Translations under genes and position numbers: made by a program
Source of the DNA: Closterium sp. NIES-65
Lineage: Eukaryota > Streptophyta > Zygnematophyceae > Desmidiales > Closteriaceae
Length of the DNA stretch: 64,000 nucleotides
Assembly: GCA_948144175.1 (NCBI GenBank)
Contig: CANXME010002072.1
Coordinates: forward strand, 434,001-498,000
Direction: 5' to 3'
The notes under the pieces: generated by a model
Seen by the model: only the letters and a program-made list of their open reading frames with translations
Databases searched by the model: none
Told to the model about the DNA's origin: nothing
In this document: positions 2,342 to 36,827 of the stretch, piece by piece
Numbering within the stretch: position 1 is the first letter of the stretch
Layout: every line of letters starts with the position of its first letter

Positions 2342-2404
2342 CCCCCCCACACTGGGAGGCCCAGGACTGAGCACAGTGGCAACGGCCAACATGTGCATAC
2401 ACCG

Positions 2405-2459
2405 GGATTCGAACCCGAGACCGCTCTGATACCATGTCAGAATCCCAACCACTAGACCA
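2405..2459 (-). promoter_or_regulatory. tRNA-like Pol III A box and B box across TRIM LTR/PBS junction
   Basis: On the minus strand an A-box-like TGGTCTAGTGG (2449-2459, inside the LTR end) and a perfect B box GGTTCGAATCC (2405-2415, inside the element interior) are separated by 33 bases, the distance found in type 2 Pol III promoters of tRNA genes. The D-arm-like sequence around the A box (TGGTCTAGTGGTTGGGATTC) strongly resembles tRNA-Glu. There is no matching acceptor stem, so this is a tRNA-like promoter and not a functional tRNA gene. Function is inferred. Confidence 0.6.
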
Positions 2460-2576
2460 TTGGGATAAAAGGGCTTGTTTCAGTAGCGGGTCAGTGCGCC
2501 CATAACCCCCCAGGCAAACGCGCCTGTAACCCCCCCTAGGATCGATCGGGGATCTCACAGTGTAGCTCTACTGACA
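2435..2576 (-). repeat. TRIM 5' LTR (142 bp)
   Basis: Right copy on the plus strand and the 5' LTR in element orientation, identical by eye to 2200-2341. Its last bases in element orientation run directly into the initiator-Met primer binding site at 2423-2434. Confidence 0.92.
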
Positions 2577-5500: not shown

Positions 5501-6511
5501 TCTCTGCCGCCGTTCTACATCCTCGTGTACGTCGACGACTTGGTCTTTGCCACACCTGACACTGCTGGACTCGCCCACGTGAAGTCCGAGCTGCAGAAGA
5601 GACACACGTGCATAGACCTGGGTGAACTGCGCAGCTACCTTGGCTTGCAGATCACCCGGGACAGAGCACGTCGCACCATTACCCTGACTCAGTCACACAT
5701 GGTGCAGCAGGTCCTTCAGCGCTTCGGCTTCACGTACTCCTCGCCTCAGGCCACTCCTCTGTCTACTCGCCACTCGCTCTCAGCTCTGCCTTCGGATGAG
5801 TCCGTAGAGTCGAGTGGCCCGTACCCAGAGCTTGTTGGCTGCCTCATGTACCTGATGACCTGCACACGACCTGACCTCGCATACGCTCTTAGCATTCTTG
5901 CACGCTATGTTGCTCCTGGGAGACACAGACCAGAGCACATGGCTGCAGCGAAGAGGGTGTTGCGCTACTTGTGCAGTACGTTGGGCATGGGGCTAGTGCT
6001 TGGAGGGCGGAGTCCAGTGGTCCTTACTGGGCACGCGGACGCTTCTTGGGCTGACGACCAGGCTACGCAACGGTCGTCACAGGGTTACACCTTCAGTCTT
6101 GGTTCCGGCTCTGTTTCGTGGCGGGCTACTCGCTCGTCTTCTGTTCTCGGCTCCAGTTGTGAGGCTGAGATCTACGCCGGGGCCATGGCTGCACAGGAGC
6201 TTCGTTGGCTCACCTACCTGCTGACTGACCTAGGAGAGCCGCCTCGTTCTCCTCCAGTGGTGTATGTAGACAACAAGGCCATGCTGGCCTTGTGTCGGGA
6301 TCAGCGCTTGGAGCACAGAACGAAGCACATTGCTCTCCGCTACTTTCTTGCTCATGAGTTGCAGCAGCGTGGTCAGTTGCGACTTGCGTACGTGGCCTCT
6401 GAGGCTAACACTGCTGATGTTTTCACCAAGGCACTTGCGCCTTGTGATCATCAGCGCTTCTGCACTCAGCTGGGTCTTGTACCTGTCTTGCCTCACTTGC
6501 TCACCACTTGA

Positions 6512-9980: not shown

Positions 9981-12900
9981 ATGGACCGGTCAGTGTTGGA
10001 TCGTCCCGCGATAGATCGTCGGATGATGCTGCTCAGCCGCAGTCGCCGTGAGCACGACGGAGATTCCGATTCAGAGGAAGCGTATTCAGTCGGAAGAGAT
10101 GACGTGGATCGTTCTGATTCGCTCAGCCGGGCCTTCGCTCAGGTCAGATACCAGCAGGTGGCTAGCGTCCCAGTAGCCGACATATCAGACCTGCTTCGCG
10201 ACCATGCGACAAAGCATCTCAAAAGCGCGCGATCCTGTGAAGTCCTGGCACAATGGAGTGCCTGCGTCGTTGCTTTTCCGAAATGGATTTTTGGCCTAGT
10301 GTGCGTTTCTGGGTATGCTCGTGTGTGCGCTCGAACGTTCGTGTCTGGTTCGTGCGTTCCTTTTCCCCAATGCTGGCAGCAAGCGAACGTGGGGGACTAC
10401 CGGGGAAGAGGAGGGGAGTCGCGGCAAGTGCGGGAAGAGGAGGAGGAGGACGAGGACGAGGAGGAGTACACCGTGGAGGTGTGGGACGCGCTTGACTCCC
10501 TAGAACAGGTAGGGGGGTGGGTGGAGGGAGGAGCATGGGCCTGCGAGGAGCAGGAGGGCGAGATTGTGCGTGGAGATGTGAGAGTGGAACACCGGTGAAC
10601 GCATGGGGCTGCACCCACAGTGTGCCTCAAGCACCCCCGCTCAACCCGCAGATGTGTGTGCTTGCTCACCCCCGCTCGTTGCCTCGCCCTCGTCCTCCCT
10701 TCCGTCTCCGCACTCTTATCACTGTCCGCCATTCCCTTCTCCCCCCTCCCCACCCCCTCCCGCGCTTCTCCACTGTCCTCGACCCCACGGCGTCCCCATG
10801 CGCGCGTGCGGCAGTTAAAGCCCATCATCGCGTCGGGCCCGCGGTGGAAGCTCGAGGAGTTTCTACGAGCCATCGACATCCTCCAGGTGCGCTCGCACGC
10901 CCGCATGCTGCTGTAACCACGCTCGCATGCTGATACAGCTACGCTCGCATGCTGCTGCAGGCACGCTCGCATGCTGCTACAACTACGCTCTCATGCAATG
11001 GTATAATGCGTTATAATTATCTGTGCTCTGCTTTCTCCCCCTTCCCCCCTCCCCCTCTCCGACGGCGCGCAGGAGATGGCGGAGTTCTTTGAGCGCAACG
11101 AGTGCGCGTCGGGCGTGCGCGAGTGCGAGAAGTACATGGCGGTCGCCATGGACCACCTCGTCGACGAGTTCCGCGACGCGCTCGTCAAAATCAGGTGCGC
11201 GCGCTCGCATGCACGCACGCATGCACGTGGGTGACTGAGATCGCAATGGAGCAGGGGATTGCAATAGGGAGGGACGGGGGCGCACATGAATGAATGGGGT
11301 GGGATGGAGTGCAGCAAGCGTGCGAGCGAGTGCAACGTGTTTGAGCTGGTGAGAAACGCCTCCACGCTGTTACCCCACGTTGTTCCCACCACACCCACTT
11401 CCCTCCCTCCCCCCATCCCCGCGCACGGCCCTGTGGCTCGGCGCGCAGCAAGCCGTTGCCAGCAGCCATGCTGCGCGAGGTGGCCATGTCAGCGCACGCG
11501 GGCCGCCTCGTCGACCAGCACCAGGGCGGCGCTGCTGCTGCCGCCGCCGCCGTGCTGGCGGGCGCGGCGGGCCCGGGCGTGCCGCGCACGTCCACCGGAT
11601 CCTCGTCCGCGTCGTCGCACCTGCCCACGTCGCGCTCGCGCACCGCCAACACCACCTCGTCGCCCGACTCGTCGGGGTCGTCGTCGCCCGTGGGGGGTGG
11701 GGGGTCCGCCACGGCGCACGCGGTGTCAGCCGCCACGCACCTGGCGCTGCAGGACTGGCTGTCCGCCAGCGCCGTGCCCTTCCTGCACCGCATGGCCGTC
11801 AAGCTCGCGCAGGGGGGCGAGTCGCAGCGCTGCATGCAGCAATACGTGTGAGCACTGACAAGAATGATTTCCGTCGCCTGTCACTTTTGCTTCCTATCAA
11901 TCCTCCTCTTTTCCTCCTTCCTATTATCCCCCCACTGTTTTCCTTGGCCGCTTTTCCTGTCTGCTTCCCTCTCCAACCCTCCGAACGCGCCCTCTTCCTC
12001 CATTCCCTGCCCTCATTCTCCCCCAACTCTTACCCCTTCCCCCCTTCCTCATTCACACGAACAGCAAGGTGCGGGCGGAGGCCATTCAACGAAGTGTAGA
12101 CGCGCTGGACATCAAGAGAGTGCTGACGACATCACTGGAGGAGATGACGTGGCAGCAGCTGGAGGCGCTAATGAAGGGATGGGTCACGGACATGCGAGCC
12201 ATGGTGGGTCACAGACATGCGAGCCATGGTGGGTCACAGACATGCGAGCCATGGTGGGTCACAGACATGCGAGCCATGGTGGGTCACAGACATGCGAGCC
12301 ATGGTGGGTCACGGACATGCGAGCCATGGTGGGTCACAGACATGCGAGCCATGGTGGGTCACAGACATGCGAGCCATGGTGGGTCACGGACATGCGAGCC
12401 ATGGTGGGTCACAGACATCCGAGCCATGGTGGGTCACAGACATGCGAGCCATGGTGGGTCACGGACATGCGAGCCATGGTGGGTCACAGACATGCGAGCT
12501 ATGGTGGGTCACAGACATGCGAGCCATGGTGGGTCACAGACATGCGAGCCATGGTGGGTCACAGACATGCGAGCCATGGTGGGTCACGGACATGCGAGCC
12601 ATGGTGGGTCACAGACATGCGAGCCATGGTGGGTCACAGACATGCGAGCCATGGTGGGTCACAGACATGCGAGCCATGGTGGGTCACAGACATGCGAGCC
12701 ATGGTGGGTCACAGACATGCGAGCCATGGTGGGTCACAGACATGCGAGCCATGGTGGGTCACAGACATGCGAGCCATGGTGGGTCACAGACATGCGAGCC
12801 ATGGTGGGTCACAGACATGCGAGCCATGGTGGGTCACAGACATGCGAGCCATGGTGGGTCACAGACATGCGAGCCATGGTGGGTCACAGACATGCGAGCC

Positions 12901-15900
12901 ATGGTGGGTCACAGACATGCGAGCCATGGTGGGTCACAGACATGCGAGCCATGGTGGGTCACAGACATGCGAGCCATGGTGGGTCACAGACATGCGAGCC
13001 ATGGTGGGTCACAGACATGCGAGCCATGGTGGGTCACAGACATGCGAGCCATGGTGGGTCACAGACATGCGAGCCATGGTGGGTCACAGACATGCGAGCC
13101 ATGGTGGGTCACAGACATGCGAGCCATGGTGGGTCACAGACATGCGAGCCATGGTGGGTCACAGACATGCGAGCCATGGTGGGTCACAGACATGCGAGCC
13201 ATGGTGGGTCACAGACATGCGAGCCATGGTGGGTCACAGACATGCGAGCCATGGTGGGTCGCAGACATGCGAGCCATGGTGGGTCGCAGACATGCGAGCC
13301 ATGGTGGGTCGCAGACATGCGAGCCATGGTGGGTCGCAGACATGCGAGCCATGGTGGGTCGCAGACATGCGAGCCATGGTGGGTCGCAGACATGCGAGCC
13401 ATGGTGGGTCGCAGACATGCGAGCCATGGTGGGTCGCAGACATGCGAGCCATGGTGGGTCACAGACATGCGAGCCATGGTGGGTCACAGACATGCGAGCC
13501 ATGGTGGGTCACAGACATGCGAGCCATGGTGGGTCACAGACATGCGAGCCATGGTGGGTCACAGACATGCGAGCCATGGTGGGTCACAGACATGCGAGCC
13601 ATGGTGGGTCACAGACATGCGAGCCATGGTGGGTCACAGACATGCGAGCCATGGTGGGTCACAGACATGCGAGCCATGGTGGGTCACAGACATGCGAGCC
13701 ATGGTGGGTCACAGACATGCGAGCCATGGTGGGTCACAGACATGCGAGCCATGGTGGGTCACAGACATGCGAGCCATGGTGGGTCACAGACATGCGAGCC
13801 ATGGTGGGTCACAGACATGCGAGCCATGGTGGGTCACAGACATGCGAGCCATGGTGGGTCACAGACATGCGAGCCATGGTGGGTCACAGACATGCGAGCC
13901 ATGGTGGGTCACAGACATGCGAGCCATGGTGGGTCACAGACATGCGAGCCATGGTGGGTCACAGACATGCGAGCCATGGTGGGTCACAGACATGCGAGCC
14001 ATGGTGGGTCACAGACATGCGAGCCATGGTGGGTCACAGACATGCGAGCCATGGTGGGTCACAGACATGCGAGCCATGGTGGGTCACAGACATGCGAGCC
14101 ATGGTGGGTCGCAGACATGCGAGCCATGGTGGGTCGCAGACATGCGAGCCATGGTGGGTCACAGACATGCGAGCCATGGTGGGTCACAGACATGCGAGCC
14201 ATGGTGGGTCACAGACATGCGAGCCATGGTGGGTCACAGACATGCGAGCCATGGTGGGTCACAGACATGCGAGCCATGGTGGGTCACAGACATGCGAGCC
14301 ATGGTGGGTCACAGACATGCGAGCCATGGTGGGTCACAGACATGCGAGCCATGGTGGGTCACAGACATGCGAGCCATGGTGGGTCACAGACATGCGAGCC
14401 ATGGTGGGTCACAGACATGCGAGCCATGGTGGGTCACAGACATGCGAGCCATGGTGGGTCACAGACATGCGAGCCATGGTGGGTCACAGACATGCGAGCC
14501 ATGGTGGGTCACAGACATGCGAGCCATGGTGGGTCACAGACATGCGAGCCATGGTGGGTCGCAGACATGCGAGCCATGGTGGGTCGCAGACATGCGAGCC
14601 ATGGTGGGTCGCAGACATGCGAGCCATGGTGGGTCGCAGACATGCGAGCCATGGTGGGTCGCAGACATGCGAGCCATGGTGGGTCGCAGACATGCGAGCC
14701 ATGGTGGGTCGCAGACATGCGAGCCATGGTGGGTCGCAGACATGCGAGCCATGGTGGGTCACAGACATGCGAGCCATGGTGGGTCACAGACATGCGAGCC
14801 ATGGTGGGTCACAGACATGCGAGCCATGGTGGGTCACAGACATGCGAGCCATGGTGGGTCACAGACATGCGAGCCATGGTGGGTCACAGACATGCGAGCC
14901 ATGGTGGGTCACAGACATGCGAGCCATGGTGGGTCACAGACATGCGAGCCATGGTGGGTCACAGACATGCGAGCCATGGTGGGTCACAGACATGCGAGCC
15001 ATGGTGGGTCACAGACATGCGAGCCATGGTGGGTCACAGACATGCCATGGTGGGTCACAGACATGCGAGCCATGGTGGGTCACAGACATGCGAGCCATGG
15101 TGGGTCACAGACATGCGAGCCATGGTGGGTCACAGACATGCGAGCCATGGTGGGTCACAGACATGCGAGCCATGGTGGGTCACAGACATGCGAGCCATGG
15201 TGGGTCACAGACATGCGAGCCATGGTGGGTCACAGACATGCGAGCCATGGTGGGTCACAGACATGCGAGCCATGGTGGGTCACAGACATGCGAGCCATGG
15301 TGGGTCGCAGACATGCGAGCCATGGTGGGTCACAGACATGCGAGCCATGGTGGGTCACAGACATGCGAGCCATGGTGGGTCACAGACATGCGAGCCATGG
15401 TGGGTCACAGACATGCGAGCCATGGTGGGTCACAGACATGCGAGCCATGGTGGGTCACAGACATGCGAGCCATGGTGGGTCACAGACATGCGAGCCATGG
15501 TGGGTCACAGACATGCGAGCCATGGTGGGTCACAGACATGCGAGCCATGGTGGGTCACAGACATGCGAGCCATGGTGGGTCACAGACATGCGAGCCATGG
15601 TGGGTCACAGACATGCGAGCCATGGTGGGTCACAGACATGCGAGCCATGGTGGGTCACAGACATGCGAGCCATGGTGGGTCACAGACATGCGAGCCATGG
15701 TGGGTCACAGACATGCGAGCCATGGTGGGTCACAGACATGCGAGCCATGGTGGGTCGCAGACATGCGAGCCATGGTGGGTCGCAGACATGCGAGCCATGG
15801 TGGGTCGCAGACATGCGAGCCATGGTGGGTCGCAGACATGCGAGCCATGGTGGGTCGCAGACATGCGAGCCATGGTGGGTCGCAGACATGCGAGCCATGG

Positions 15901-18900
15901 TGGGTCGCAGACATGCGAGCCATGGTGGGTCGCAGACATGCGAGCCATGGTGGGTCGCAGACATGCGAGCCATGGTGGGTCACAGACATGCGAGCCATGG
16001 TGGGTCACAGACATGCGAGCCATGGTGGGTCACAGACATGCGAGCCATGGTGGGTCACAGACATGCGAGCCATGGTGGGTCACAGACATGCGAGCCATGG
16101 TGGGTCACAGACATGCGAGCCATGGTGGGTCACAGACATGCGAGCCATGGTGGGTCACAGACATGCGAGCCATGGTGGGTCACAGACATGCGAGCCATGG
16201 TGGGTCACAGACATGCGAGCCATGGTGGGTCACAGACATGCGAGCCATGGTGGGTCACAGACATGCGAGCCATGGTGGGTCACAGACATGCGAGCCATGG
16301 TGGGTCACAGACATGCGAGCCATGGTGGGTCACAGACATGCGAGCCATGGTGGGTCACAGACATGCGAGCCATGGTGGGTCACAGACATGCGAGCCATGG
16401 TGGGTCACAGACATGCGAGCCATGGTGGGTCACAGACATGCGAGCCATGGTGGGTCACAGACATGCGAGCCATGGTGGGTCACAGACATGCGAGCCATGG
16501 TGGGTCACAGACATGCGAGCCATGGTGGGTCACAGACATGCGAGCCATGGTGGGTCACAGACATGCGAGCCATGGTGGGTCACAGACATGCGAGCCATGG
16601 TGGGTCACAGACATGCGAGCCATGGTGGGTCACAGACATGCGAGCCATGGTGGGTCACAGACATGCGAGCCATGGTGGGTCACAGACATGCGAGCCATGG
16701 TGGGTCACAGACATGCGAGCCATGGTGGGTCACAGACATGCGAGCCATGGTGGGTCACAGACATGCGAGCCATGGTGGGTCACAGACATGCGAGCCATGG
16801 TGGGTCACAGACATGCGAGCCATGGTGGGTCACAGACATGCGAGCCATGGTGGGTCACAGACATGCGAGCCATGGTGGGTCACAGACATGCGAGCCATGG
16901 TGGGTCACAGACATGCGAGCCATGGTGGGTCACAGACATGCGAGCCATGGTGGGTCACAGACATGCGAGCCATGGTGGGTCACAGACATGCGAGCCATGG
17001 TGGGTCACAGACATGCGAGCCATGGTGGGTCACAGACATGCGAGCCATGGTGGGTCACAGACATGCGAGCCATGGTGGGTCACAGACATGCGAGCCATGG
17101 TGGGTCACAGACATGCGAGCCATGGTGGGTCACAGACATGCGAGCCATGGTGGGTCACAGACATGCGAGCCATGGTGGGTCACAGACATGCGAGCCATGG
17201 TGGGTCACAGACATGCGAGCCATGGTGGGTCACAGACATGCGAGCCATGGTGGGTCACAGACATGCGAGCCATGGTGGGTCACAGACATGCGAGCCATGG
17301 TGGGTCACAGACATGCGAGCCATGGTGGGTCACAGACATGCGAGCCATGGTGGGTCACAGACATGCGAGCCATGGTGGGTCACAGATATGCGAGCCACAG
17401 TGGGCAGGGCCTGGGGCGTGGAGCTGGGCTTGGGGCTGGGGACTGGCTCGGACTTGGGGCTGGGGACTGGCTCGGGCTTGGGGCTGGGGACTGGCTCGGA
17501 CTTGGGGCTGGGGACTGGCTCGGACTTGGGGCTGGGGACTGGCTCGGACTTGGGGCTGGGGCAGGGGTTGAGGATGGAGGTGGTGTGATCCATGATTTGG
17601 GAAAGACGTGCCTCTTGAGTGATTGCTGCGGGCGTGACTGCCTGCATGGTGCTGTTGCCGTTTCCTCCCTCTCACACGCCCCTACCTCTCCTCGCTGCCG
17701 TGCCTGCCACTGACCACGGCAGGTGTTGGTGCTGCTGGGCAGCGAGCGCGTGCTGTGTGACGAGATATTCGACTCCCTCGAACCCGACAGAGAGCTCTGC
17801 TACCTCTCCCTCATTCAGGTGACCCCTGCTTCCTCCCACCCCAATCTCTTCGCAAGTCTGTTCCAGATGTCTCTCCACCATCGTGTTCGCCTAAAATCTC
17901 CCCTATTCACCCTTAACAAGCCCTGTCCCTCCTCCCCCGTTCCTCCTCTCCCCACTCCTGCGCGCAGGCGAGTGGGCTGGCAGCAACGGTGGAGGCGGTG
18001 GTGAGCAACGGGCGGGTGGTGGCGTCGGGGCGCAACACACCGGAGCGCCTCTTTGCGCTGCTCGACATGTTCACCACCGGCCGCGAGCTGCGCGCCCAGG
18101 TGGGGGGGGGGGGGGGGGAGGAGCGGGGGGGGGAAGAGTAGGTGGGGAGGAGAGGGGGGTGTGAGCGAGGAAGGCCACAGGTGGAGGGCGGAGGGTCGCA
18201 GGTGGGGTAAGGAGGCTGGAGATGCGCGCCCGAGTTTTGTCTCCCTGTGCTTCCCGTCAACTTCCTGAAAGCCTTTCAAACACTTCCCCCGCCTGCCCTT
18301 CCCACCCTGGCCGTTTGCTTGGGGATCAGATCGAGGCGGTGGTGTCGGTGCCGGGGTTTGGCAGTGTGCTGCGCGAGATGGAGCGGCTGCCGCGCGACCT
18401 GGCGGGTGCGGTGATGGACACCATCGGCGAGTTCAAACGCGTGCTCGAGGAGCCGCCCGCGCACCACCAGGCGCACAGCCAGGACAAGAAGAAAGGGTGA
18501 GCGGGGAGAGGGGCTGGGGATGGAAGGCGGGCGGGATGGGACAGGCATGGGGTGTGGCAGCTACAATAGCATGTGACACCACCTCCTGCACCCATCCTGT
18601 GTCCGCCCTCTGTGTTTGACTTCGCCTGGCCAGTGTTTCTCCCCTCACTCTGCCTCTTCTATCTCCCCTGACCACCCGCTCGAGCACAATCTCACTTCTT
18701 CATCCCATCCCACCCCGCCCGTGTGCCCTTGTGACCGCAGCATGCTGAAGCCGTTCCTGCGCAGTGCGAGTGCGAGCAGTGGGGCGGACACGGGGCCCGT
18801 GGAGGAGATGGAGGTCGCGACGGCCGCCACACACCCCCTCACCTCCTACGTCGTCAACTACATGAACAATCTCCTCGATAAGTGCGTGCGCGGTCTCCTC

Positions 18901-21050
18901 CTGTCACCCTGCTCTCATTTCCGATGTCCATGTGTTAGGCTTACAGCACCAGGTTGTGGAATTGACCGTGGCGCAGTTGAAGCTAGCAGCTTGATGTACG
19001 GAAATGGATGGATGGATGCAACGCATGGGTGCACTGACCCCACTGGAGTTGTTATGGAATTCCTGTGGTGGTGAGCAGGCAGAGCAAGCGCAACTACCCG
19101 GTGACGTTGGAGTATCTGCTGCTGGAGTACGGCCGCAGCATCACGTCCACCGGCGCCGACGCCACGGCAGCGGCGCTCATAACGCGCAGCGGCCCGCAGT
19201 ACAAGACGCCCTTCAGCGGCGCCGCTGTGGAGCGGCGGTCGGGCGCGGTGGGGCCAGCAGCGCTGGGGCAGCGCGCAGCCACCCTGGCGGGCGTGGTGTC
19301 GTCGGTGCTGGAGTCGCTGCTGCGCTGCCTGGAGAGCCGCGCCAAGGCCGCCTCCGACCCCACCCAGGGCGCGCTCTTCCTCCTCAACAATGCCCTCTAC
19401 ATCTCCAAAAACCTGTGAGCCGCTCAACCCCCTGCAGTGCTGTCAGTACGTGACACTCGTGCCACTCTGTGCGGTGTCCCTTGCAGAGAATCGCACCAGC
19501 AGCAGCACCGTATGCTGCCCTGATATGCCTGCGTGCTACTACCATATGTGGCTGGCTGCGAGGATGTGTCTCCCGGTCCACTTGTGGACCTCCACTCCCA
19601 TGTGCCCATGTGTCCATGCCCTCATGTGTCCACACAACCATGCACCCATGTACCCATCTGTGTGGCGGTGCAGGTCGGATGGCAAGCTGTCAGCTGTGGC
19701 GGATCTACCGGACTGGAAGGACGGGCAGATGCTGGACAAGTACATGATCCACTTCAGAGACGCTGTGCTCGCCCGGGTGACTCTTGCTTGCCCTGCCCTG
19801 CCATGCCATGCCATGCCATGCCCTGCCTGCGTGGCACATTTTATCAAATGGCAGGATTGTTGTGACATGTGTGCATGAAGCGTGTGTGTGCGGCTGTATG
19901 GTGTGTGGCCATGCTTGCTTTAGCAGTTCCGTTTCTGCTTGCATGATTGTGCCCTCCTGGGTCTCATACCTCTATTGCTCCTGTTTGGATGCCATGCCAT
20001 CTCATTCTCCCACCCCCCTCACCTCCCCCACCTCTCTCAGTTCACCTCCCTCGTTTGCATGCCTGCGCTCCCCCGTGCGCGCATGCGCGCGGCCACAACA
20101 GATATCGCACGCACTGGAGGAGACAGCAGTCACGGGGGGGCTGCTCAAGTCGGTCAATGAGCACACGGAGGTCAAGGCCAAGTGAGTCGCGCGGGGGAAG
20201 TGGGGTGGGGTGTCTATTTGGACAGGTGGGTGAGCGCCAGTTAGGAGGCTTGACTGTGCGGCCTTGTTGACTCGCTGCTATGCATTGGCCCTCCCTTCTC
20301 GCCATGCTACCACAGGCCGTCTCGGCAGTTTTGTCTCCCTCATCCGTGTCACTCCTTCCCCTCGCTGCCATGCATCACCCTGACATGCGCACATGTATGT
20401 ATGTGTGTGTGTGTGTGTGTGCGTGCGCGCGTGTGCGTGTGTGTGTGCATGTGGGGTGGCAGGCTGAAGAAGTTCAACGCGGCGTTTGAGGAGCTGGCGA
20501 TAAAGCAGGCGGGGTGGAACATCCCCGATGAGGACCGCCGCAAGAAGACTCGCAGCAGCGTTGCTCGGCGCCTGCGAGAAATCTACTCTGCATTCCTGCT
20601 GCCCTACAGGTGCCCTGCCATGCCATGCCCATGCCTTCCTGCTGCCCTACAGGTGCCCTGCCATGCCCATGCCTTCCTGCTGCCCTACAGGCGCCCTGCC
20701 ATGCCCATGCCTTCCTGCTGCCCTACAGGTGCCCTGCCATGGCCATTCCTTGCTGCCCCCCTCATGGCATGCACAGAGCGCATCCCATCTGTGTGTGTGT
20801 GGCTCCACTCGCATGCCACTCGTGCCCTCTTCTCTCTGCTCCCACTCATCTCCATGCGCATGCGCCTCTGCTTGTATTTGTGTCACTCTTACTGTCTGTG
20901 CATGTGTGTGTGTGCACATGGGGGTGTCACAGGGAGGAGCTGTGTGAGTTCAAGACGTACCGCTATTCACCGGACGCCATAGAGCGCGTCGTGCTCGACT
21001 ACTTCTTCCTCGCCACTCCCTCCAGAGGCCTCCCCATCTCCTTTGGCTAG
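9981..21050 (+). CDS. EXO70: exocyst complex subunit EXO70 (plant-type), multi-exon
   Basis: EXO70 is the exocyst subunit that tethers secretory vesicles to the plasma membrane by binding phosphoinositides. Exons read from splice sites and frame: 9981-10508 (may contain one small in-phase intron ending at 10379), 10815-10886, 11073-11194, 11449-11847, 12065-12203, 17723-17818, 17968-18099, 18330-18496, 18741-18881, 19079-19414, 19674-19776, 20102-20181, 20463-20609, 20933-21050. All junction phases fit and the total is 2580 nt (859 aa), longer than the usual 600-700 because of a Ser/Ala/Gly-rich insert in exon 11449-11847 and an acidic stretch near 10440. The family features are the N-terminal coiled coil, WKLEEFLRAIDILQ, WQQLEALMKGWVTDMRAM continuing without a gap into VLVLLGSERVLCDEIFD, GALFLLNNALYI, and the C-terminal FNAAFEEL...GWNIPDEDRRKKTR and YRYSPDAIERVVLDYFF. 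Start ATG 9981 (MDRSVLDRP) is the first in-frame Met after the TATA-like box. Confidence 0.93.
10890..10990 (+). repeat. 22-bp tandem repeat at the 5' end of an EXO70 intron
   Basis: About four copies of a unit like ACGCTCGCATGCTGCTACAACT begin within a few bases of the donor at 10887. One unit reads GCAGGCACGCTCGC, similar to the exon-donor junction CCAGGTGCGCTCGC, so this may be a decayed example of a junction-derived array. The resemblance is weaker than in the three clear cases. Confidence 0.7.
12181..17401 (+). repeat. 25-bp minisatellite, 209 units, derived from EXO70 exon end plus splice donor
   Basis: Unit GGGTCACAGACATGCGAGCC plus ATGGT, 25 bp, repeated 209 times over 5221 bp (one 21-bp unit near 15040 lacks GAGC). 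The first unit, GGGTCACGGACATGCGAGCC plus ATGGT, is the last 23 coding bases of the exon ending at 12203 plus the donor GT at 12204-12205. The intron runs 12204-17722 and is almost wholly this array. Units differ mainly at one base (GTCACAG or GTCGCAG). Because 25 is 1 mod 3 and the unit has no stop, all three forward frames are open for more than 5.3 kb; I regard these as array artefacts and not a protein gene, because the flanking exons join perfectly across it. Confidence 0.97.
17429..17562 (+). repeat. 24-bp tandem repeat in the same EXO70 intron
   Basis: Five full copies and a partial one of CTTGGGGCTGGGGACTGG plus CTCGGA follow 27 bases after the 25-bp array. G-rich on the coding strand and in the intron. 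No relation to the 25-bp unit is evident. Confidence 0.93.
20397..20452 (+). repeat. (TG)n/(CG)n dinucleotide tract at EXO70 splice acceptor
   Basis: Alternating purine-pyrimidine run, mostly TG with GCGCGC, lying immediately upstream of the acceptor GGTGGCAG at 20462, where a polypyrimidine tract would be expected. Confidence 0.85.
20593..20740 (+). repeat. 38-bp tandem repeat copying an EXO70 exon end and donor
   Basis: The exon end TTCCTGCTGCCCTACAG (ending 20609) with its donor GTGCCC is followed by units ending at 20652 (43 bp), 20690 (38 bp) and 20728 (38 bp), each repeating the same exon end and the intron start (GT at 20653 and 20729, GC at 20691). Four junction-like sites in a row, each also able to serve as an acceptor because the unit is pyrimidine-rich and ends in CAG. 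Confidence 0.93.
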
Positions 21051-21458
21051 CCTCGCCTCCCCATCTCCTTCCATTAATCACGCCTCCCCATTCGCTTTCC
21101 ATCTCCTTTCGAGTGCCTCGAAGCTTCCCATCTCCATCATGTCAGAAAGCCACGCCAGCTCGCCCACTCCCTCTCCCTGCACAGCCACTCATTGCTACCT
21201 CCACTCGCCGGCACCTTGTCTCAGCAGCGCCTGTGCATCACACGCGCCCCGTTGAGTTGGGAGTGTCGTGGCAAGCCATTCCCCCCACTGGCACGGGCAA
21301 TAAGGCTTGCTGACAGCGCCCAGTCTGCCTGGCCATGTGGCCCCACCGACAGTAGCAAGGAACAACACACCCACTCAGCGGCACAGTAGCAGTAGCAAAG
21401 GCAGCAGTACCCAAAGCATTAGCACCAGTAGCAGTAGCAGCAGTAGGCGCAGTAAATG

Positions 21459-21510
<52 letters not shown>

Positions 21511-21976
21511 GTGCATGGCATGCCAGCATATGCACGGCAATGAGGCAGTGGAGGGGCGAGTGCAGCAGCATACGGTAGATGATGTAGTGATAGCGAGCCA
21601 TGGTATGGTAGTGGTGTAGGCTCTCTTGCAGCCTTTGCACATGCAATCTCCATTTGGAAGGTGCAGTCCTTGGCACACAGCCCTGTTGATGTTGCACAAG
21701 ATACTTGCTAGCGAAGATGCTGGTAGTCTGAATTGTACTGTACAATAAGTACAATGTCAGTTGCTAACTAACTTTTGAGAAACAAAATGTGTAACAAACT
21801 AGTATGCCAATTATGTTACTAGTAGTAGCCTCAGACCAACTCCAGCATAAGCACACCATCCTTGCCCATTTCTGAGGTTAATCTGTGCCCGTGAGATTCG
21901 CTACCACCACCATCACGCTGCCAGCACCTGTGCGGCGTGGAGCTGTGGCAACCAGTGGGGCAAGTGGCCACGCTCA
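21051..21976. other. intergenic region between convergent EXO70 and RBBP5 genes
   Basis: Contains the 3' flank of EXO70, a GCA/CAG-type microsatellite (21461-21509), and an AT-richer stretch near 21700-21860. The two genes converge here, so it should hold both 3' UTRs. No further gene or RNA recognised. Confidence 0.6.
21461..21509. repeat. (GCA)n microsatellite
   Basis: About 16 GCA triplets in the EXO70/RBBP5 intergenic region, preceded by imperfect GCAGTA repeats. Not inside a supported reading frame. Confidence 0.95.
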
Positions 21977-24730
21977 CTACCTCTCCCTCTTTGCCCTACC
22001 CTTGCCCCTTCTATGGCTCTTCTCCCCCCCTCCCCCTCTCTTGTCCCCCCGCCCCTCCCGCTTCTCCCCCTTGCCCTCCCTCCTGCCCCCCCCCACCAGC
22101 TCTGCTGCTTTCTCTGACAGCCGCCGCCGCCGCCTGCCCCGCCCTGATGCCCCCCGCCCCTCTGCAGCCGCCAAAAAGGGGGGTGGGGGGAAAGGGAGGG
22201 GTGGGGGGGAGGGTGTGCGAGAGCAAAGGTGGGTGAGGGGGAGAGGGAAGAGCGCAAGGGGAGATGAGTGTGTACAGGTTGCAAAACAACAAGTGGCATT
22301 GCTGAACCCAGTGCGTGAGTGGTGTTGGTGGTAGAAGTGAGCGCTGGTAATCAGCGTGAGTGGTGTTGGTGGTAGAAGTGAGCGCTGGTAATCAGCGTGA
22401 GTGTTGTTGGTGATAGAAGTGAGCGCTGGTAATCAGCGTGAGTGTTGTTGGTGATAGAAGTGAGCGCTGGTAATCAGCGTGAGTGTTGCCGGTGACTGCA
22501 TGCACTCACACCGCTCACAAAAGAACCTTTCCTCACCTGAGTCACTGTCAGCGCCAGCCCCGCCACTGCCCTGCCCCTCCCCGTCCTCCCCCTCCGAACC
22601 ACTCTCCTCCCCATCACTCTCACCCTCCCGGTTCCGCGCCCTGCCCCTCTGCCCCTGCTCCTCCTCTGCATCCTCCGCTGCGCCGTTGGCAGCAGGGGCA
22701 GCGGCAGCAGTGGGCGGAGCGGGGGTGGGGAGGGGGTGGGTGGGGAGGAAGAGCAGGGCGTCAGAGGAGTCGTCAGAGTCGCTGTAAGCCGCCACGCGCT
22801 CCACCCTCTCTATGTCCACCTCCTCTGATCCACCTCCCTCCTCCCCTGCACCATGCCGTGCGGGCGGGCCCAGCCCCGGGTCGGGCCAGGCGTCGAACTC
22901 GTCCTCGCGCTCCACGTACTCCTCGTTCTCCTCCAGCTCACGGAAGTCAGGCGCGAACGCACTCCAGCTCTCGCGGTAGTCCTGCGCCCACAGGTAGATG
23001 CTGCCGCCGCCCGCCAGCGACGCCATCACCTTGCGTGTGGGGTGCCATAGCAGGTCCGCCAGGGCCTCCTTGGGGCCCTCGAGGATGCGCACGAGCTGTC
23101 CGAAGGCGCGGTTCCAGATGTGGATCTTGTGCTCGCCGCGCGCCGCCACGCCGCCCACCACGAACTCGCCGTCGCCGCTGAAGCAGGCGCTGCGCCACTG
23201 CACGCGGTTCACCGCGTCCTGGTACTCCTTCACGAACGTCAGTGCCACCAGCGCGCGCTGCTTGACCCGTGGCACCACCTCGACTGCCCCCGGCCACCCC
23301 CCGCCCTGCTTGCTGCCCCCTGCTCGCCCGCTCCCGCGCTCACTGTGCTCTGACTCCCCAGCTGCGCTCTCGCCTCTCTCCCCGTTCTGCTTCGCAACCT
23401 TAGTCTCCCCGCCAGCGCCGCTGCCCTGGGCGCCGTGCAGGGCGGCGGTGGCGAGGGAGAAGACGCGCAGCACGCGGTCCGTGCAGTTGGTCAGCAGGAA
23501 CCGCCCGTCGCGACTCAGCGCCAGCTGGCGGATGCACGCCGCCGCCCATCCAGTGCTGCCGCTGCTGCCACCCGCGGGGGAGGGCACGCCGGGGATGGTG
23601 GCGAGGAGGGCGGCATCGGGCACGGAGGCGACGAGGATGTGGCCCGAGGGCGCGCCCACGAGCGCCAGGCTGCCGCTCTTGTCAAACACCGCCGGCCACG
23701 GCAGGCTCCCCGCCCCCCCCTCGCCCCCCCCGCCCCTCCCACCTTTCCCTGCCCCGCCCCCCGCGCCATCCGCCTTGGGGGAGGTGGGGAGTGGTCGGAG
23801 TTTTCCGGAGGGGAGGTGGAGGAGGGCGGGGGGGGCGCCCATGGGGCAGACGAGCGCGAGGGAGGGGGAGGGGGAGGGGTGCAGGCGCACGTGGAGGGCG
23901 GGCTTGGGGAGGGGCACGGAGGTCACGGGGGAGCCCGCCGCCACGTCCCACAGCACCACGCGGTAGGGCGACGGCGGAGCATGCGGCTGCGCAGGGGAGT
24001 GCGCGTGCGCGTGGGCGGAGGGGCCCGCGGCGGTGTAGGCGGCGAGCAGCAGGCGGCCGCATTTGGACCATGCGACGCTCGTGACCAGCGACGGGGGAGG
24101 AGGGGGAACGGCGGAGGGCGTGGCGGATGGAGAGTCCGCCGTGGCGGGTGAGGGGGTCTCATGGAGGGGCGGGGGGAGCAGCGGGGGGAGCGGCAGCTCC
24201 TTGGCCACTCCGCGCGTGTCGAAGTCCCAGATGACGCACACGCCATCCGCGCACCCCGCTGACGTGGGGGATGCGGGGGCAATGCGCAAACGTAAGGGGA
24301 AGGGAAAGGGAAGGGGGTGTAAGGGGAAGGGGAGGTGGCCAAGGGTGGGAGATTGATGCGGACTTGAGGCGGGGAAAAATGAGGAGGAGGGAGGGCGCGC
24401 ACGGGACTGGCCACGATGGCTGTGTGCGGCCGCGCATGCAGCGCCGCGTACCTGCGAGCAGCGTGCCGCGGCGGTTGAAGGCGATGCACTTGGCGGCGCG
24501 GTGGTCCAGATACTCCTCGATCACTTCGGGGAAGTCGTTCTGAAACGGATCTGCCTCGGGGCGCGCGCGCCGCCGTTTGTGCGTTGCGACATGCCAAGCA
24601 ACGGGAAAGACGGGAGCAATGGGACTGAGGCTGAGCCCGGGAGGGCGGCGCACGCAGGAGGAGCGGGCGAGAACGAGGAGAGGGAGAAACGGGGAAGCGA
24701 GCGAGGCTGACCTAGCAGGCTGAGATTCAT
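21977..24730 (-). CDS. RBBP5: RBBP5/Swd1-like WD40 subunit of COMPASS H3K4 methyltransferase
   Basis: RBBP5 (yeast Swd1, plant RBL) is a core WD40 scaffold that with WDR5 and ASH2L stimulates SET1-type histone H3 lysine 4 methylation in the nucleus. Exons on the minus strand: 24730-24712 (MNLSLL), 24550-24452 (DPFQNDFPEVIEEYLDHR), 24258-22537 and probably 22161-21977. Phases fit at all three junctions and the total is 2025 nt (674 aa). Family hallmarks: FNRRGTLLA-AGCADGVCVIWDFDTRG, CFSGDGEFVVGG, IHIWNRAFGQLVRILEGPKE, WSAFAPDFRELEENEEYVER, then an acidic tail with SDSDDSSDALLFLP. The last exon is basic (GRGRRRRRLSEKAAEL, Lys/Arg-rich) and is supported only by a good GACTCAG/GTGAGG donor, an acceptor CTGCAG, phase and composition. 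Gly/Ser/Pro-rich loops between blades enlarge the propeller. Start: ATG 24730 matches the MNL start of the family. Confidence 0.9.
22313..22490 (-). repeat. 41-bp minisatellite in last RBBP5 intron
   Basis: A little over four copies with period 41 (GCGTGAGT recurring at 22313, 22354, 22395, 22436 and 22477). In gene orientation each unit contains CTGATTACCAG, which resembles a branch point plus AG, so the intron carries several possible cryptic acceptors. It does not touch the donor at 22537. Confidence 0.92.
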
Positions 24731-25376
24731 GGCGACTCTCGACCAATGGCTGCACGTTCCAGCATTCGACGAACGCGGCACGTGTAATGAGATAGATGGA
24801 CGTCCAAGAAAGACGCTTCGGAATTGAGGAATTATGTAGTAAGTTCTAAGACTTCGAATTTCCATGAGGTGGAATGAGCGGTTTGAGATTTGAAATTTAC
24901 AACACGCTTTCGACGCAACATCGAGGTTGGATATATCGGGGAAAGGTCAACCAATTGCATACGTTCTCTCGTCCCAAAGGTTTGGCCCAAGCGCCCACGT
25001 CCAGTCCCCCTGCGACGATTGCAGTCGCCTACCACGACTGGCTGAGAGCCATCCGGCCATTTCACGTCGCACCCGTTTCGTCCACATTTCGCTTCGCCCT
25101 GCGACGCATACGACGTCGCCTACTGGCCTCGCCCAGCTACCCCTACCCTCACCTCAAACCCTCACAGCACCATTTTAGCCTGCCACTCACCACCATCCTA
25201 CCGTTTCCAGCCTAGTTGTACGCTCGCCGCTTCTCTTGCTACCACTGCTGCTACTACCACTATATCCTTTCCTTTAGTTTGCAAGATACCTGCTTTTAGG
25301 GTTTCATCGAGACGGCATAGCGGCGCGTGGCATGCGTTACGTGTGAGCGCGCGGTGGAGGAGAGGCGCGGGTCGGC
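24731..25376. promoter_or_regulatory. bidirectional intergenic region between RBBP5 and the kinase gene
   Basis: The two genes are divergently transcribed with 646 bp between start codons, so this stretch must hold both promoters and 5' UTRs. It is less GC-rich than the genes and shows no clear TATA box on either side. No gene or RNA recognised. Confidence 0.5.
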
Positions 25377-28196
25377 ATGGGCTGCTTCCTGTCCGTCGAG
25401 GTCGAGGCGCCAACAGCGCCGTCGTCCAAACCCGCAGGTCCGCGCCAATGCTTCCTCGTAGCGCTGCGTATCGCACGCGGTCGTTTCTCACGACGCAAGT
25501 GTCACTCACGATGCAGTGTTTCTTGCCGCTCTTACTGCTCCCAGCACCGTATCACCGTTCCTCACCGCCCCCCTTGCCGTCCCGTGCGCAGAGGGCAGCC
25601 AATCCACATCGTCGGGGGCTCCTAGGTCTATGAAAAGCGGCGGCTCGAGCGCGGCGTTATCCAAATTAAAGAGCTCCACATCAGGGCTAGGGGCGGACCC
25701 AGGTGGGGGAACAGGGCCGCCGCCAGCGCGGCGGCTGAAGCTGAAGGAGTTTCTGACGATCACGAACAGCTTCGACGAGAACGGCGTGCTAGGGGAGGGC
25801 AGCTTCGGCAAGGTGTACCGCGGCGTGTGGGAGGAGGCGCCGGCGGGGCGAGGCGGGGGGGGCGAGGTGGTGCGCACGCAGGTGGCGGTGAAGAAGCTCA
25901 ACCCGGAGAGCTTCCAGGGCTACGAGGAGTGGCTGGTGCGCGCTCCCCTCCCCCACCTCGCGCGCGCCCCGCCCTCCCCGCTTTGTCGCGCACGCTCTAC
26001 CTCGTTGCTATGCCCCTCACTCCCCGCTCTCGTTTTTGCCACGCGTCTGCATGGTCTTGTGTGTCGTGTCGTACCCAGTCTGTGCGCGCTTGACTGACGC
26101 GCGCGCATTGCGTGTGCGGGGTGGGGGTGGGCGGGCGGCAGGCGGAGGTGTTGCTACTGGACAAGTTGCGGCACCCGAACCTGGTGCGGCTGGTGGGGTA
26201 CTGCGCGGAGAAGGGCGAGGCGCTTCTGATGTACGAGCTCTGCCCCAATGGCTCGCTCGACGACGTGCTCTTCGAACGTACGCTCTTCCTCCTCCCCCGC
26301 CTTGTCCTGCCATTGCGCCGTCCTGCTATTTCCCCGTCGTTGCCGTCGGGGCGTGCTGCAAAGCAATTCCTCTTTAACTTCATTATCCCGCACTTTCAAC
26401 GTGCGTGTGGTGGGTGTGCTGTGTGTTTGGTTGCGTGTGGGCGTGGCCGCGTGTGGTTGCGCGTGTGGTTGCACATGGGTGTGGGTGCGCGCGTGTGCGC
26501 GTGAGCAGCGGAGGAGTACGTGTTGTCGTGGGAGCAGCGCGTGCGCATAGCGCTGGACGCGGCGAAGGGGTTGGCGTATCTGCACGAGAGCAACATCATC
26601 CACCGCGACTTCAAGGCCTCCAACATCCTGCTCGCCGAGGTCAGTCCTGCTCGCCGAGGTCAGTGCTGCTCGCCGAGGTCAGTGCTGCTCGCCGAGGTCA
26701 GTGCTGCTCGCCGAGGTCAGTGCTGCTCGCCGAGGTCAGTCCTGCTCGCCGAGGTCAGTCCTGCTCGCCGAGGTACCAGCCAACCAGGGTCACGGGCTGT
26801 GAGGGGCTGTGAGGGCACAGATCCGTGCAGCATCCCCCCCTCCTCGCCGAGGGCAGTGCGTAGCTCGTCGCTCCACTGCGCTGTACGGCTGAGCGCGTTG
26901 CCTCACACACGGCGATTGGGACGCGCCTTTTGATTCTCTTACCCGCGCGCCCTGCTCCACAGCTGCCCTGCTGCTGCTGAGCCCGCCCCCGCTGCCCCCC
27001 ATGCCGCCGCATCGCATTCATCAATGCTTCCCCCCTTGACCCCGCCACGTGGCTGCCACACGCGGCACATGGGTGGCACGCGCGGCCACGGGTGTGCGGT
27101 GGATGGCAGGACTACTCGGCGCGGCTGACGGACTTTGGCATGGCGCGGGCAGGGCCGGACGGGGGAGAGACGCACATCTCGACGCGAGTCATGGGCACGC
27201 TGGGCTACCTCGACCCCACCTACATGGAAACCGGTACCTTACCCTCCCCATTCCTCCCCTTCCCCCTCCACCCGTTTACTCCTTGCCACCCTCTCTGCTT
27301 GCTACGCCCCTTGCACCTTCCTTCTTGCCTCAGTTTCTTCCTCCATCCTCCCCTCCTGCTTCCTTGCCTCTTTCTCTGCTCGTCGCCACCCTCCCTTCCA
27401 TCTTCTCATCCCTTCCTCTTCCTATGCCCTGCTGCTTCCCTGTTCTTACCCACTCGCGCCCGCCCTCCGGCCTCGTGTCTGCGTCTTCATCTTGTGTCTT
27501 GTCCTCCCTGCCCACAGTCCACGCTCCCACTTGCCCCCTCCGCCCGCTCATTCCCCTCTCGCTCTTGGCCTCTGCCATGCACCCTCCACATGCACCACAC
27601 ACCCTCCACGTGCACCACACACCCTCCACGTGCACCACACACCCTCCACATGCACCACACACCCTCCACGTGCACCACACACCCTCCACGTGCACCACAC
27701 ACCCTCCACGTGCACCACACACCCTCCACGTGCAACCCACACCTCCACGAGCACCACACACCTCCACGAGCACCCCACACCCCACTGTGCATGGTCTGGC
27801 TCTGGAGCACGCTCACCTGGCATGCCTCTGTGTGTTCCCCTTCCCCCCTGTGTGCGCACGAGTGCAGGGCGGCTGACAAAGAAGAGTGATGTGTATGCAT
27901 TCGGAGTGCTGCTGCTGGAGCTGCTGACAGGGCGGCGCACAACAGGCGAGAGCGGCAACGACAGCCTGACGACGTGGATCCGGCCGTTCCTGTCGCAGCG
28001 GCGGCCGGACCTGAACCTGCTGGTGGACCCGCAGCTGAAGGGCGAGTTCAGCAAGGCGGGCGCGGTGAAGATGGCGATCCTGGGCAAGCACTGCATCCAC
28101 GACGACCCCGGGCTGCGCCCCGACATGACCACCCTCGCTGAGAACCTCGAGCTCGTTGACATCAAGGACCCCACGCCGCCGCCCCAGGCTGGATGA
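25377..28196 (+). CDS. receptor-like cytoplasmic kinase, RLCK-VII/PBL-like
   Basis: RLCK-VII kinases (BIK1, PBS1, PBL group) relay signals from plasma-membrane receptor kinases. Exons: 25377-25437, 25592-25935, 26142-26277, 26509-26639, 27110-27233, 27868-28196; phases all fit, 1125 nt, 374 aa. The start MGCF gives an N-myristoylation Gly2 with Cys3 for palmitoylation, as usual in this family. After a short Ser/Gly-rich leader come [20 protein letters not shown], the glycine loop [18 protein letters not shown] (ATP lysine), FQGYEEWL joined to [31 protein letters not shown] (family-typical catalytic loop), [22 protein letters not shown] and [22 protein letters not shown]. The APE motif reads DPT, so its glutamate is missing; the rest of the catalytic set is present. 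The intron after 26639 starts with a tandem array of the exon-donor junction. Confidence 0.93.
26628..26774 (+). repeat. 19-bp tandem repeat copying the kinase exon end and splice donor
   Basis: The exon end CTGCTCGCCGAG (to 26639) plus donor GTCAGT is followed by seven exact-length 19-bp units starting at 26640, 26659, 26678, 26697, 26716, 26735 and 26754, each reading GTCAGTnCTGCTCGCCGAG; the last is followed by GTACC at 26773. This gives eight GAG/GT junctions in a row, and each unit also contains AG/GT on both sides. Confidence 0.96.
27581..27780 (+). repeat. 20-bp tandem repeat in kinase intron
   Basis: Eight units of ACCCTCCACGTGCACCACAC (with CATG/CGTG variants) at exact 20-bp spacing from 27581 to 27740, followed by degenerate copies. 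It lies in the interior of intron 27234-27867, not at a splice site. Confidence 0.94.
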
Positions 28197-29744: not shown

Positions 29745-30641
29745 TTCCCCTGTCGGAACTGTTCTTAGGGCCCACCACCGCTACCTCGTAACTTTTTTTT
29801 CTGCCCGGAGCGCGCCCTGAGCCCTCTTACTTCCTTTTTTTTTTTCAATCTGCCCTAACGGCCCCTAGACACCCGCGCGCCGCCCGCCCTAACGCCCGCG
29901 CGCTGCCCGCCCTAGAGCCTGAGCGCGGCCCACCCTAGAGCCTGACGGCCGCCCGCCCTAGAGCCTGAGCGCCGCCCGCCCTAGCGCCCGTGCGCGGCCC
30001 GCCCTAGAGCCTGACGGCCGCTCACCCTAGGGCCTGAGCGCCGCCCGTCGTCGCCCTAGCGCCCTAGCGCCCGACGCCCGCGAGCCGCCCGTCGCACCGC
30101 CCGTGCGCCGCCCGTGCGTCGCCCTCAGCAGCTCGACGCGCCGCCCGTGCAGCCGCCCAGCGTGAGCCGCCCGCGACCGCCCAGGCCGCCGTCCGTGAGC
30201 CGCCCGTGCAGCCGCCCTCCGCCGCCCGTGAGCCGCCCGTGCAGCCGCCCGCAGCCGCCCGTGAGCCGCCCGTGCAGCCGCCCGCGAGCCGCCAGCGAGC
30301 CGCCCGTCGCGACGCCCGCGCCACCCGTGCCACCCGCGTCACCCGAGCCGCACGAGCCGCCCGTGCAGCAGAGCCGCCCGAGCCGCCCGTGCAGAAGACC
30401 CGCCCGAGCCGCCTGTGCCGCCCGAGCCGCCCGAGCCGCCCGAGCCGCCAGAGCCGCCCGAGCCGCCCGCGCCGCCCTAGCCGCTCGAGCCGCCCGAGCC
30501 GCCCGAGCAACCTGAGGTGCCGAGCTGCTGCTCCTGTGGGGCTGCTGCTGCTCCTGGACCGGCGCAGCCGCTGTGCTGCCGTGCTGCTGTACGACTGAGC
30601 TACCCGACTCTTCCTGCTCGGTGAGACTGTCAGCTGCTATA
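29745..30641 (+). other. copia B leader of degenerate GC-rich repeats
   Basis: Non-coding leader between primer site and gag ATG. From 29860 to 30500 it is made of imperfect CCGCCCGCCCTAGAGCCTGA and GCCCGAGCCGCC words, C-rich on the sense strand. Element A shows the same type of leader (1-120), and C has the equivalent on its sense strand. Likely an RNA packaging or translation-control region, but no function can be read. Confidence 0.75.
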
Positions 30642-31693
30642 ATGGCCACCCCCAGTATCCTGGCTTTTGATGCTGAGGGTCGCGCCATTGACTTTGCAGT
30701 CTGGGTCGAGGACCTGCAGCTGTACTTACTGTGCGATGCGATAGATGAGGTTTCTCTCTTTGACTTTGTCTCTGGCGCTGTCCCTGCCCCTCCTGCTGAT
30801 GCTGACCCCACTGTTCGCTCCAAGTGGGCCACACGCGATGCTGCTGCACGTCTTGCTGTGCGTCGCCACCTCCCTTCCTCCGAGCGTGCGCACTTTAGTC
30901 AGTGCAAGACCGCTCAGGCCTTGTACGACGCTGTAGTTGCGCGCTACTCCTCCCCTTCCTCCGCTACGCTGAGCCGCCTCATGCTACCGTACCTCTTCCC
31001 TGACCTCGCTGCCTTTCCCACAGTCGCTGACCTCTTTACCCACCTCCGCGCTAGTGACACTCGCTACCGCGCTACGCTTCCTGCTGAGTTCCGCGCCGCA
31101 AACCCTCCTCCCATGTACATCACTCTCTACTTTCTACTCACCCGTCTCCCTGAGTCCCTTCGTGCCGTTAGGGACCAGTTTCTCTCTGTCTGTCCCACCA
31201 CCCTCACCGTCGACCTCCTTGAGAAGTCCCTGCTAGCGGCCGAGAAGAGCATAGTCACTGTAGGGGCCTCTCGTGGTGACCCGCGCACCCCCATCTTTGA
31301 GGGGTGTTCTCCTTCCCCCCTGCTACCCTCTGTCGCCTCTGCTGCTGCGGCCGACCTCGTTGGTTTAGAGTCGGTCGGTGCGGCGTCTGCCCCCAGCGGT
31401 AGGCGCCGCTCTGGCAGGAGCAAGGGGGGCAAGGGAGCGGGTGGAGCTAGCGGGGGCGGTGGCGGAGGAGGTGGGGGGGGCGGGGGGAGTGGGGGTGGTG
31501 GTGGGGGTGGAGGCGGGAGTGGAGGTACTGGTGGCGGCGGTGGAGGCGGAGGTGGCGGCGGAGGTGGTGGCGGAGGAGGCAGTGGGAGCGGCGGGGGCGA
31601 GGGTGGCGGTGGCGGCGGTGGCGGCGGAGGCGGGGGGGTGGTGGAGGTGGTCGGAGTGGCTCGTCCCAGAGGAGCGGCACTGGGGGTGGTCAG

Positions 31694-31734
<41 letters not shown>

Positions 31735-36615: not shown

Positions 36616-36827
36616 CCTTGCTTGTACCTTGACCTATATATACTCTTGCTCTTGTTTGCTTGACTCTTGTATATCTCTATATATGATCTTGCATGTGAAC
36701 TGGCCTTGTGGCCCTTGAACTTGTGCTCGGAATGTGTGGTGACTTTGTGATCCACCTTGAGCTTTGCTTTGCTTTGCTTGACTGGTCTTGTGACCCCTTG
36801 TTCTCCCCCACTTTGCCTATGGGGGTG

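Follow-up and report, generated by a model that had tools for sequence, protein, structure and literature searches.

Introns of Closterium have probably been lengthened by tandem duplications that span exon-intron junctions and are biased to the 5′ splice site. The enrichment of tandem arrays at donors is real and recurrent, at predicted junctions in a sample of genes. Intron growth and variation in intron length have mostly been inferred from old comparisons, and here one Closterium genome shows the event many times: the same kind of event is found in unrelated genes and in the same intron of separate paralogs, with copy number still changing.

Three donor arrays in a pair of genes

The window, the whole 64,000-nucleotide stretch that was analysed, is part of contig 1774 of the 874-Mb Closterium genome. 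In two of its genes, three introns carry tandem arrays across the donor. Arrays in the window were detected with Tandem Repeats Finder (TRF), and the features concerned are as follows.

9981-21051, + strand: EXO70-like gene, 15 exons and 14 introns (in-frame GT-AG model; 99% identity to annotated Closterium proteins; spliced alignment with P0125)
12065-12203, + strand: EXO70 exon 6, the final 24 nt of which are unit 1 of array 1 (sequence reading, splice model, spliced alignment)
12180-17404, + strand: array 1, 25 bp × 209.2, across donor 12204 (TRF, unit reading)
12204-17722, + strand: array-1 intron, 5519 bp, lengthened by array 1 (splice model)
20463-20609, + strand: EXO70 exon 14, the final 21 nt of which lie within unit 1 of array 2 (sequence reading, splice model, spliced alignment)
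20589-20756, + strand: array 2, 38-43 bp × 4.3, across donor 20610 (TRF, 38 bp; spacing measurement)
20610-20932, + strand: array-2 intron, 323 bp (splice model)
25377-28196, + strand: receptor-like cytoplasmic kinase gene, 6 exons and 5 introns (in-frame model; 99% identity to annotated Closterium proteins)
26509-26639, + strand: kinase exon 4, the final 14 nt of which lie within unit 1 of array 3 (sequence reading, splice model, spliced alignment)
26626-26774, + strand: array 3, 19 bp × 7.8, across donor 26640 (TRF)
26640-27109, + strand: array-3 intron, 470 bp (splice model)
10896-10996, + strand: 22-bp array starting 10 nt past a donor, without exon sequence, for comparison (TRF)
17429-17561, + strand: interior 24-bp array of 5.5 copies, off the junctions, for comparison (TRF)

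All 19 introns of the two genes (14 in EXO70 and 5 in the kinase) are GT-AG and in frame in the splice models, and both proteins match annotated ones from the Closterium strains Yama58-4, NIES-53 and NIES-54 at 99% identity, from which the organism is taken to belong to the C. peracerosum-strigosum-littorale complex. The arrays begin within the exon, 24, 21 and 14 nt 5′ of donors 12204, 20610 and 26640, and acceptors 17722, 20932 and 27109 lie 318, 176 and 335 nt past the ends of arrays 1, 2 and 3. The earlier note had described three arrays at these 5′ splice sites, with the end of the exon and the donor position in each unit, and this description is confirmed. Its copy number of 209 stands for array 1, and its values of 3 and 7 for arrays 2 and 3 become 4.3 and 7.8 when the exonic copy is included. 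Successive units of array 2 are spaced by 43, 38 and 38, and unit 114 of array 1 is 4 bases shorter than the others. The claim that each unit carries a donor is correct for the donor position, but the third copy of array 2 (the second intronic one) has GC in place of the donor GT, and so a usable donor is not kept in every unit.

A donor probe of 30 bases, 20 exonic and 10 intronic, was sought within its own intron. The best intronic match was 30, 29 and 24 of 30 at the three array donors and at most 17 at the other 16, and acceptor and exon-interior probes reached at most 18 of 30 in all 19 window introns. Three of the ten arrays in these introns fall on a donor, as compared to 0.64-0.70 expected by chance (P = 0.021-0.026, post hoc). 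For the two window genes taken alone, the argument that three introns exceed chance is no more than suggestive.

The exon ends at 12203, 20609 and 26639 were also recovered by spliced alignment with proteins of relatives (P0125 and P0009; 69 and 71% identity). MRAM or MRVM is joined directly to VLVLL across the array-1 intron in six of seven EXO70 proteins inspected (the exception is P0127), and NILLAE is joined to DYSAR, or close variants of these, across the array-3 intron in eight of nine aligned kinase proteins (the exception is P0008). In the EXO70 proteins P0123 (Naga37s-1) and P0124 (NIES-53), the array-2 intron is translated, which is either an annotation error or real retention. The repeat patterns of these two proteins differ from each other, and judged from them array 2 seems to differ between Closterium strains. 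Apparent translated intron sequence is present at at least one junction in P0005, P0008, P0122, P0123, P0124 and P0127, all from other Closterium strains. Gene models near array-bearing introns may be wrong, and Closterium gene models need care.

A second copy of the locus is located on contig 1772, with 98.6-98.7% identity across three main aligned stretches. Vegetative Closterium cells are haploid, and for this reason, together with reported gene-copy variation, the two loci were treated as duplicated copies and not as alleles. Wide variation of this kind is reported for the C. peracerosum-strigosum-littorale complex (PMC10407611). The same three donor arrays are present on contig 1772, with 69.9, 4.2 and 8.8 copies as compared to 209.2, 4.3 and 7.8 in the window. 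The arrays thus have the variable copy number of minisatellites between two genomic copies in one genome, and their 25, 38-43 and 19 bp units are arranged head to tail with 91-99% matches in TRF. The interior 24-bp array at 17429-17561 changes in the direction opposite to array 1, with 5.5 copies in the window and 36.5 on contig 1772.

The array-1 intron in EXO70 paralogs

In EXO70, the array-1 intron lies directly before VLVLLGSERVLCDEIF. Two diverged paralogs have an intron at the same position, after WIQFIKIC in C573 and after WSEHMHIG in C650, and both carry a donor array there (23 bp × 3.1 and 32 bp × 10.8, respectively). Each array repeats the exon end of its own gene, and the fourth copy of the C573 array has lost the donor. 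Since the intron is present in both diverged paralogs, it is older than the arrays, and the arrays at this position in the window, C573 and C650 either arose separately or were wholly remade.

The earlier note had raised either intron gain or intron lengthening. Under the first, the arrays would be what is left of an intron made by duplicating an exonic AG-GT segment in tandem, and each unit does contain exon sequence and a donor position, as that model needs. The AGGT model also requires that the intron was previously absent, whereas the array-1 intron is shared with C573 and C650, and it requires an intron running from the donor of one copy to the acceptor of the next, whereas all three introns end outside the arrays, at 17722, 20932 and 27109. 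Birth of these introns from the arrays is thus very improbable, and lengthening is the part of the proposal that survives, with array 1 lengthening an old intron. Described cases in potato (PMC4974935) and Drosophila (PMC2891723) involve a change of exon-intron structure when a segment bearing a splice site is duplicated in tandem, and the potato report also cites fission yeast genes that contain several copies of a 24-bp AGGT segment. A segment bearing a splice site is duplicated in tandem both in that model and in Closterium, but in Closterium it is an existing junction that is duplicated, giving a longer intron and spare donors in several gene families of one genome.

Spare donors could themselves be favored by selection if extra 5′ splice sites make splicing more reliable. 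The few unit types among the 209 copies of array 1, with GTGGGT in the units inspected, fit this idea, as does the enrichment of arrays at donors. However, the donor has been lost in the third copy of array 2 and in the fourth copy of the C573 array, and use of a spare would add 19, 25 or 38-43 nt, with a frame shift for 19, 25, 38 and 43. Selection of this kind is an improbable reason for the retention of arrays at donors.

Donor enrichment in sampled introns

Array placement was determined in 29 loci, comprising 12 EXO70-type loci, 5 kinase regions, 9 TCP1/Cpn60 regions and 3 window genes. The EXO70-type loci were drawn from a larger hit list, and C1902, a paralog with the same array as C2345, was excluded from the counts. 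The kinase regions were chosen as multi-exon among PF07714 hits, the top hits being mostly unbroken kinase domains, and contribute few introns. Because spliced alignment with EXO70A-type proteins gave too little signal for distant EXO70 paralogs (∼20-54% identity in tblastn pieces), a gene finder was written for the purpose and trained on the two main window genes plus nine EXO70 exon pieces. Exons outside these two genes are predictions of this program, not RNA-based; for the two main window genes, the curated model was used in the array-placement counts. Two array copies were retained for gene finding on array sequence, since a single copy broke the donor. Only exons scoring 12 or more for coding were kept, and exons resembling copies of a better exon were dropped (22 in the junction-probe count below).

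The base set contained arrays with 12-60 bp units in 124 introns, low-complexity units being left out. Fourteen of 72 arrays lay across a donor, as compared to 1.85 expected under uniform placement (P = 3 × 10−9), none of the 72 straddled an acceptor, and 58 were interior. The earlier note had proposed a genome-wide scan of donors, with the absence of any excess counting against it, and this smaller version, on 124 introns of 29 loci, gives a clear excess. The excess is also present outside the window (11 of 63 arrays on donors, 1.61 expected, P = 4.5 × 10−7). Because some of the 14 donor arrays were weak, the count was repeated on a strict set (units of 15-60 bp, no fewer than 2.5 copies, 8 or more exonic nt, and one doubtful case taken out). 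The weak members included T1794:519, probably a wrong exon, and T1103:5392, with just 5 exonic nt, and low copy numbers were found for C88 (1.9 copies) and for T1727 and T1794 (2.0 copies). In the strict set, 9 of 43 arrays were on donors with 0.64 expected, and 6 of 35 outside the window with 0.48 expected (P = 5 × 10−6). By family, the strict counts were 5 of 25 with 0.36 expected for EXO70 relatives (P = 2 × 10−5) and 3 of 23 with 0.29 expected for TCP1/Cpn60 (P = 0.003), and the kinases showed no significant excess (1 of 9, 0.20 expected, P = 0.18) in 11 introns, which are too few. Amplification of junctions is thus recurrent within one genome, as the earlier note suggested, extending beyond the window to EXO70 relatives and TCP1/Cpn60 genes. 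Without the complexity filter, 9 of 56 arrays of the strict set were on donors (0.72 expected) and still none on acceptors. Interior arrays, too, cluster close to the donor: those starting no more than 25 nt past it numbered 10 of 58 in the base set (2.3 expected) and 4 of 34 in the strict set (1.3 expected). An earlier, laxer pass had flagged several acceptor arrays, either purine-rich or on weak exons, which were removed by the filters, and an earlier, stricter pass over 46 introns had given 4 arrays on donors and a single one on an acceptor, which was purine-rich (15 bp, C2160).

An excess of this kind could be an artefact if the gene finder picks donors inside arrays, or if the gene pair in the window was a lucky draw. 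The finder is home-made and makes a few wrong calls, such as T1794:519 and the CCT-alpha exon, which it made 30 nt too long, the true donor being one unit upstream. Against this, the window donors are fixed by proteins of relatives, and the donors of three further arrays, in CCT-delta (20 bp), Cpn60 (20 bp) and CCT-alpha (30 bp), are fixed by gapless alignment of the junction to the sequences of solved chaperonins. With the excess persisting outside the window and in two families, an artefact would be quite surprising.

Longer duplications and the source of the bias

Copies of junctions were sought with a probe requiring at least 22 of 30 matching bases within 1.2 kb, downstream of donors and upstream of acceptors. 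Over all unit lengths, 58 of 150 donors and 35 of 116 acceptors had a copy, with no significant difference (P = 0.16). For donors and acceptors, respectively, the counts were 3/20 and 0/17 in the window, 26/51 and 13/37 in EXO70 relatives, 1/18 and 1/13 in kinases, and 28/61 and 21/49 in TCP1/Cpn60. Reversed-sequence controls for this probe gave no copies, and exon-interior probes, searched in both directions, gave copies in 22 of 117 cases, 2 of them less than 60 nt away. At donors, the distance to the nearest copy was 17-54 nt in 12 cases and 62-283 nt in 46; at acceptors, it was 112-521 nt in every one of the 35. Short units are therefore found at 12 of 150 donors vs 0 of 116 acceptors (Fisher P = 0.0015), and longer units at 46 of 150 donors and 35 of 116 acceptors. 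Duplicated junctions are not confined to donors; it is the short units that are a donor matter. These counts supersede earlier, laxer ones that included exons that were themselves copies (35/80 donors and 25/80 acceptors for EXO70-type loci plus the window; 38/72 and 32/68 for TCP1/Cpn60).

The 310 longer-unit events of the EXO70-type and window loci have a modal spacing of 120-139 bp (44 events). Intronic partial copies of adjoining exons, including the splice site, occur in L025-L031, L033-L035 and L041-L049 (EXO70 relatives and TCP1/Cpn60), mostly 110-190 bp apart and at roughly one half of the donors and between one third and two fifths of the acceptors. Plain tandem duplication accounts for some of the copies, one TCP1 gene being an example, with ∼132 of 145 nt explained. 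In EXO70 relatives, similarity of the downstream copies stops at donor +6 to +13 in 15 of 36 and at +6/+7 in 10 of 36, all 36 being from EXO70 relatives and five of them being repeats behind one C564 exon. In TCP1/Cpn60, similarity ends at +1 to +12 in 20 of 43 downstream copies and at acceptor −16 to 0 in 18 of 41 upstream copies. That similarity stops near the splice site is not predicted by plain tandem duplication.

Differences between exons and their copies amount to 4.9, 4.1 and 16.5% at codon positions 1, 2 and 3 (69 pairs), and to 9.0, 7.2 and 18.5% in TCP1/Cpn60. This third-position excess is greater than expected for copies dead from the start, and hints at past constraint on both exon and copy. 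It first suggested that the long-unit copies are exons, a possibility against which the comparison of genomic copies speaks. Between genomic copies at four EXO70-type loci, the sites that changed at codon positions 1, 2 and 3 were 3 of 483, 2 of 480 and 5 of 483 in intronic copies and 1 of 2397, 0 of 2394 and 14 of 2396 in true exons. For positions 1 and 2 together, this is 5 of 963 in intronic copies and 1 of 4791 in true exons, with 77 of 17467 in other noncoding sequence. At these four loci, the long-unit copies now drift near-neutrally like noncoding sequence, and the genes are strongly constrained.

A reading that needs no donor-specific process is that tandem duplications occur everywhere at a high rate, exonic ones are purged by selection, and those in intron interiors survive, as do those at donors because it is the first donor that is used. 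The long-unit copies at both donors and acceptors agree with this, the majority of arrays being interior (58 of 72) does too, and the lack of short acceptor units is compatible with a splicing filter. Interior positions are at least as harmless, however, yet donors exceed uniform placement 8- to 14-fold (base to strict set). Survivorship as the whole explanation is conceivable but rather unlikely. On its own it fails to explain why donors exceed interior positions that are at least as harmless, and mutation is likely to be biased toward the 5′ splice site or its vicinity. That donor flanks are generally prone to indels was considered separately and found no support in a weak test, based on 13 indels from 34 introns and the length change of array 1; between genomic copies, the density of indels showed no clear rise near donors (3, 2 and 8 events in 2040, 2040 and 8704 bp).

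In the explanation we favor, biased duplication of junctions, segments across an exon-intron junction are repeatedly duplicated in tandem, with a strong 5′ splice site bias for short units (17-54 bp), and arrays would presumably grow from two copies onward by slippage or unequal exchange. The first (5′-most) donor would stay in use in this strain, as protein homology across the junction requires, leaving the mRNA unchanged and the intron longer, with the extra copies drifting. No acceptor spacing below 112 bp was seen; a shorter unit would presumably bring a new AG close behind the branch point, with extra sequence entering the mRNA, and short acceptor units are presumably selected against. 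Seeds at donors may come from nicks or gaps tied to transcription or splicing, a guess that we hold tentatively and that could well be wrong. Somewhat less probable still is a reading in which the DNA under a 5′ splice site becomes marked for tandem duplication when that site is recognized in the course of transcription. Many Closterium introns, in housekeeping (TCP1/Cpn60) and expanded (EXO70) genes alike, would then consist largely of copies of their own junctions, with short units at the donor and longer ones, mostly 110-190 bp, at either end.

New introns arising through AG-GT duplication, intronic minisatellites and, in plants, break-repair duplications are already known. Like intronic minisatellites (VNTRs), the arrays have head-to-tail units of 10-60 bp and a copy number that differs between genomic copies, but they begin in coding sequence and center on the 5′ splice site, and we know of no 5′-splice-site rule for ordinary VNTRs. 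Patch-mediated break repair reportedly gives tandem duplications in plants (Vaughn and Bennetzen), and short tandem duplications are said to be a common insertion class in the plant lineage. To our knowledge, no splice-site bias has been described for these duplications, whereas such a bias is the main result in Closterium. Mutually exclusive tandem exons resemble the long-unit copies in repeating exon pieces together with a splice site, but the long-unit copies are mostly partial exons and change like noncoding sequence in four loci. A literature search, which left most subscription journals out of reach, returned no report of donor-centered minisatellites genome-wide or of such Closterium introns. 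Should the donor bias be borne out across the genome on RNA-supported introns, it would indicate a mutational process linked to transcription or splicing, and these introns would form a natural series for testing such a process.

Other repeats and retroelement-like stretches were observed around the two genes. An intergenic 41-bp × 4.5 array at 22313-22495, whose consensus unit contains GTGAGTG, lies on no modelled exon and has 2.3 copies on the second genomic copy. Large satellites occupy 47412-52863 (182 bp × 29.9) and 52863-64000 (31 bp × 359.3), and a 31-bp array also follows the gene pair on the second copy, with 172.9 copies (C1772:476647-481997). Stretches that by eye resemble copia-type retroelements flank or follow the genes at about 230-6500, 30640-36620, 37800-43640 and 45500-47400, and ∼377 bp inside the first of these (2200-2576) are absent from the contig 1772 copy, where the alignment breaks.
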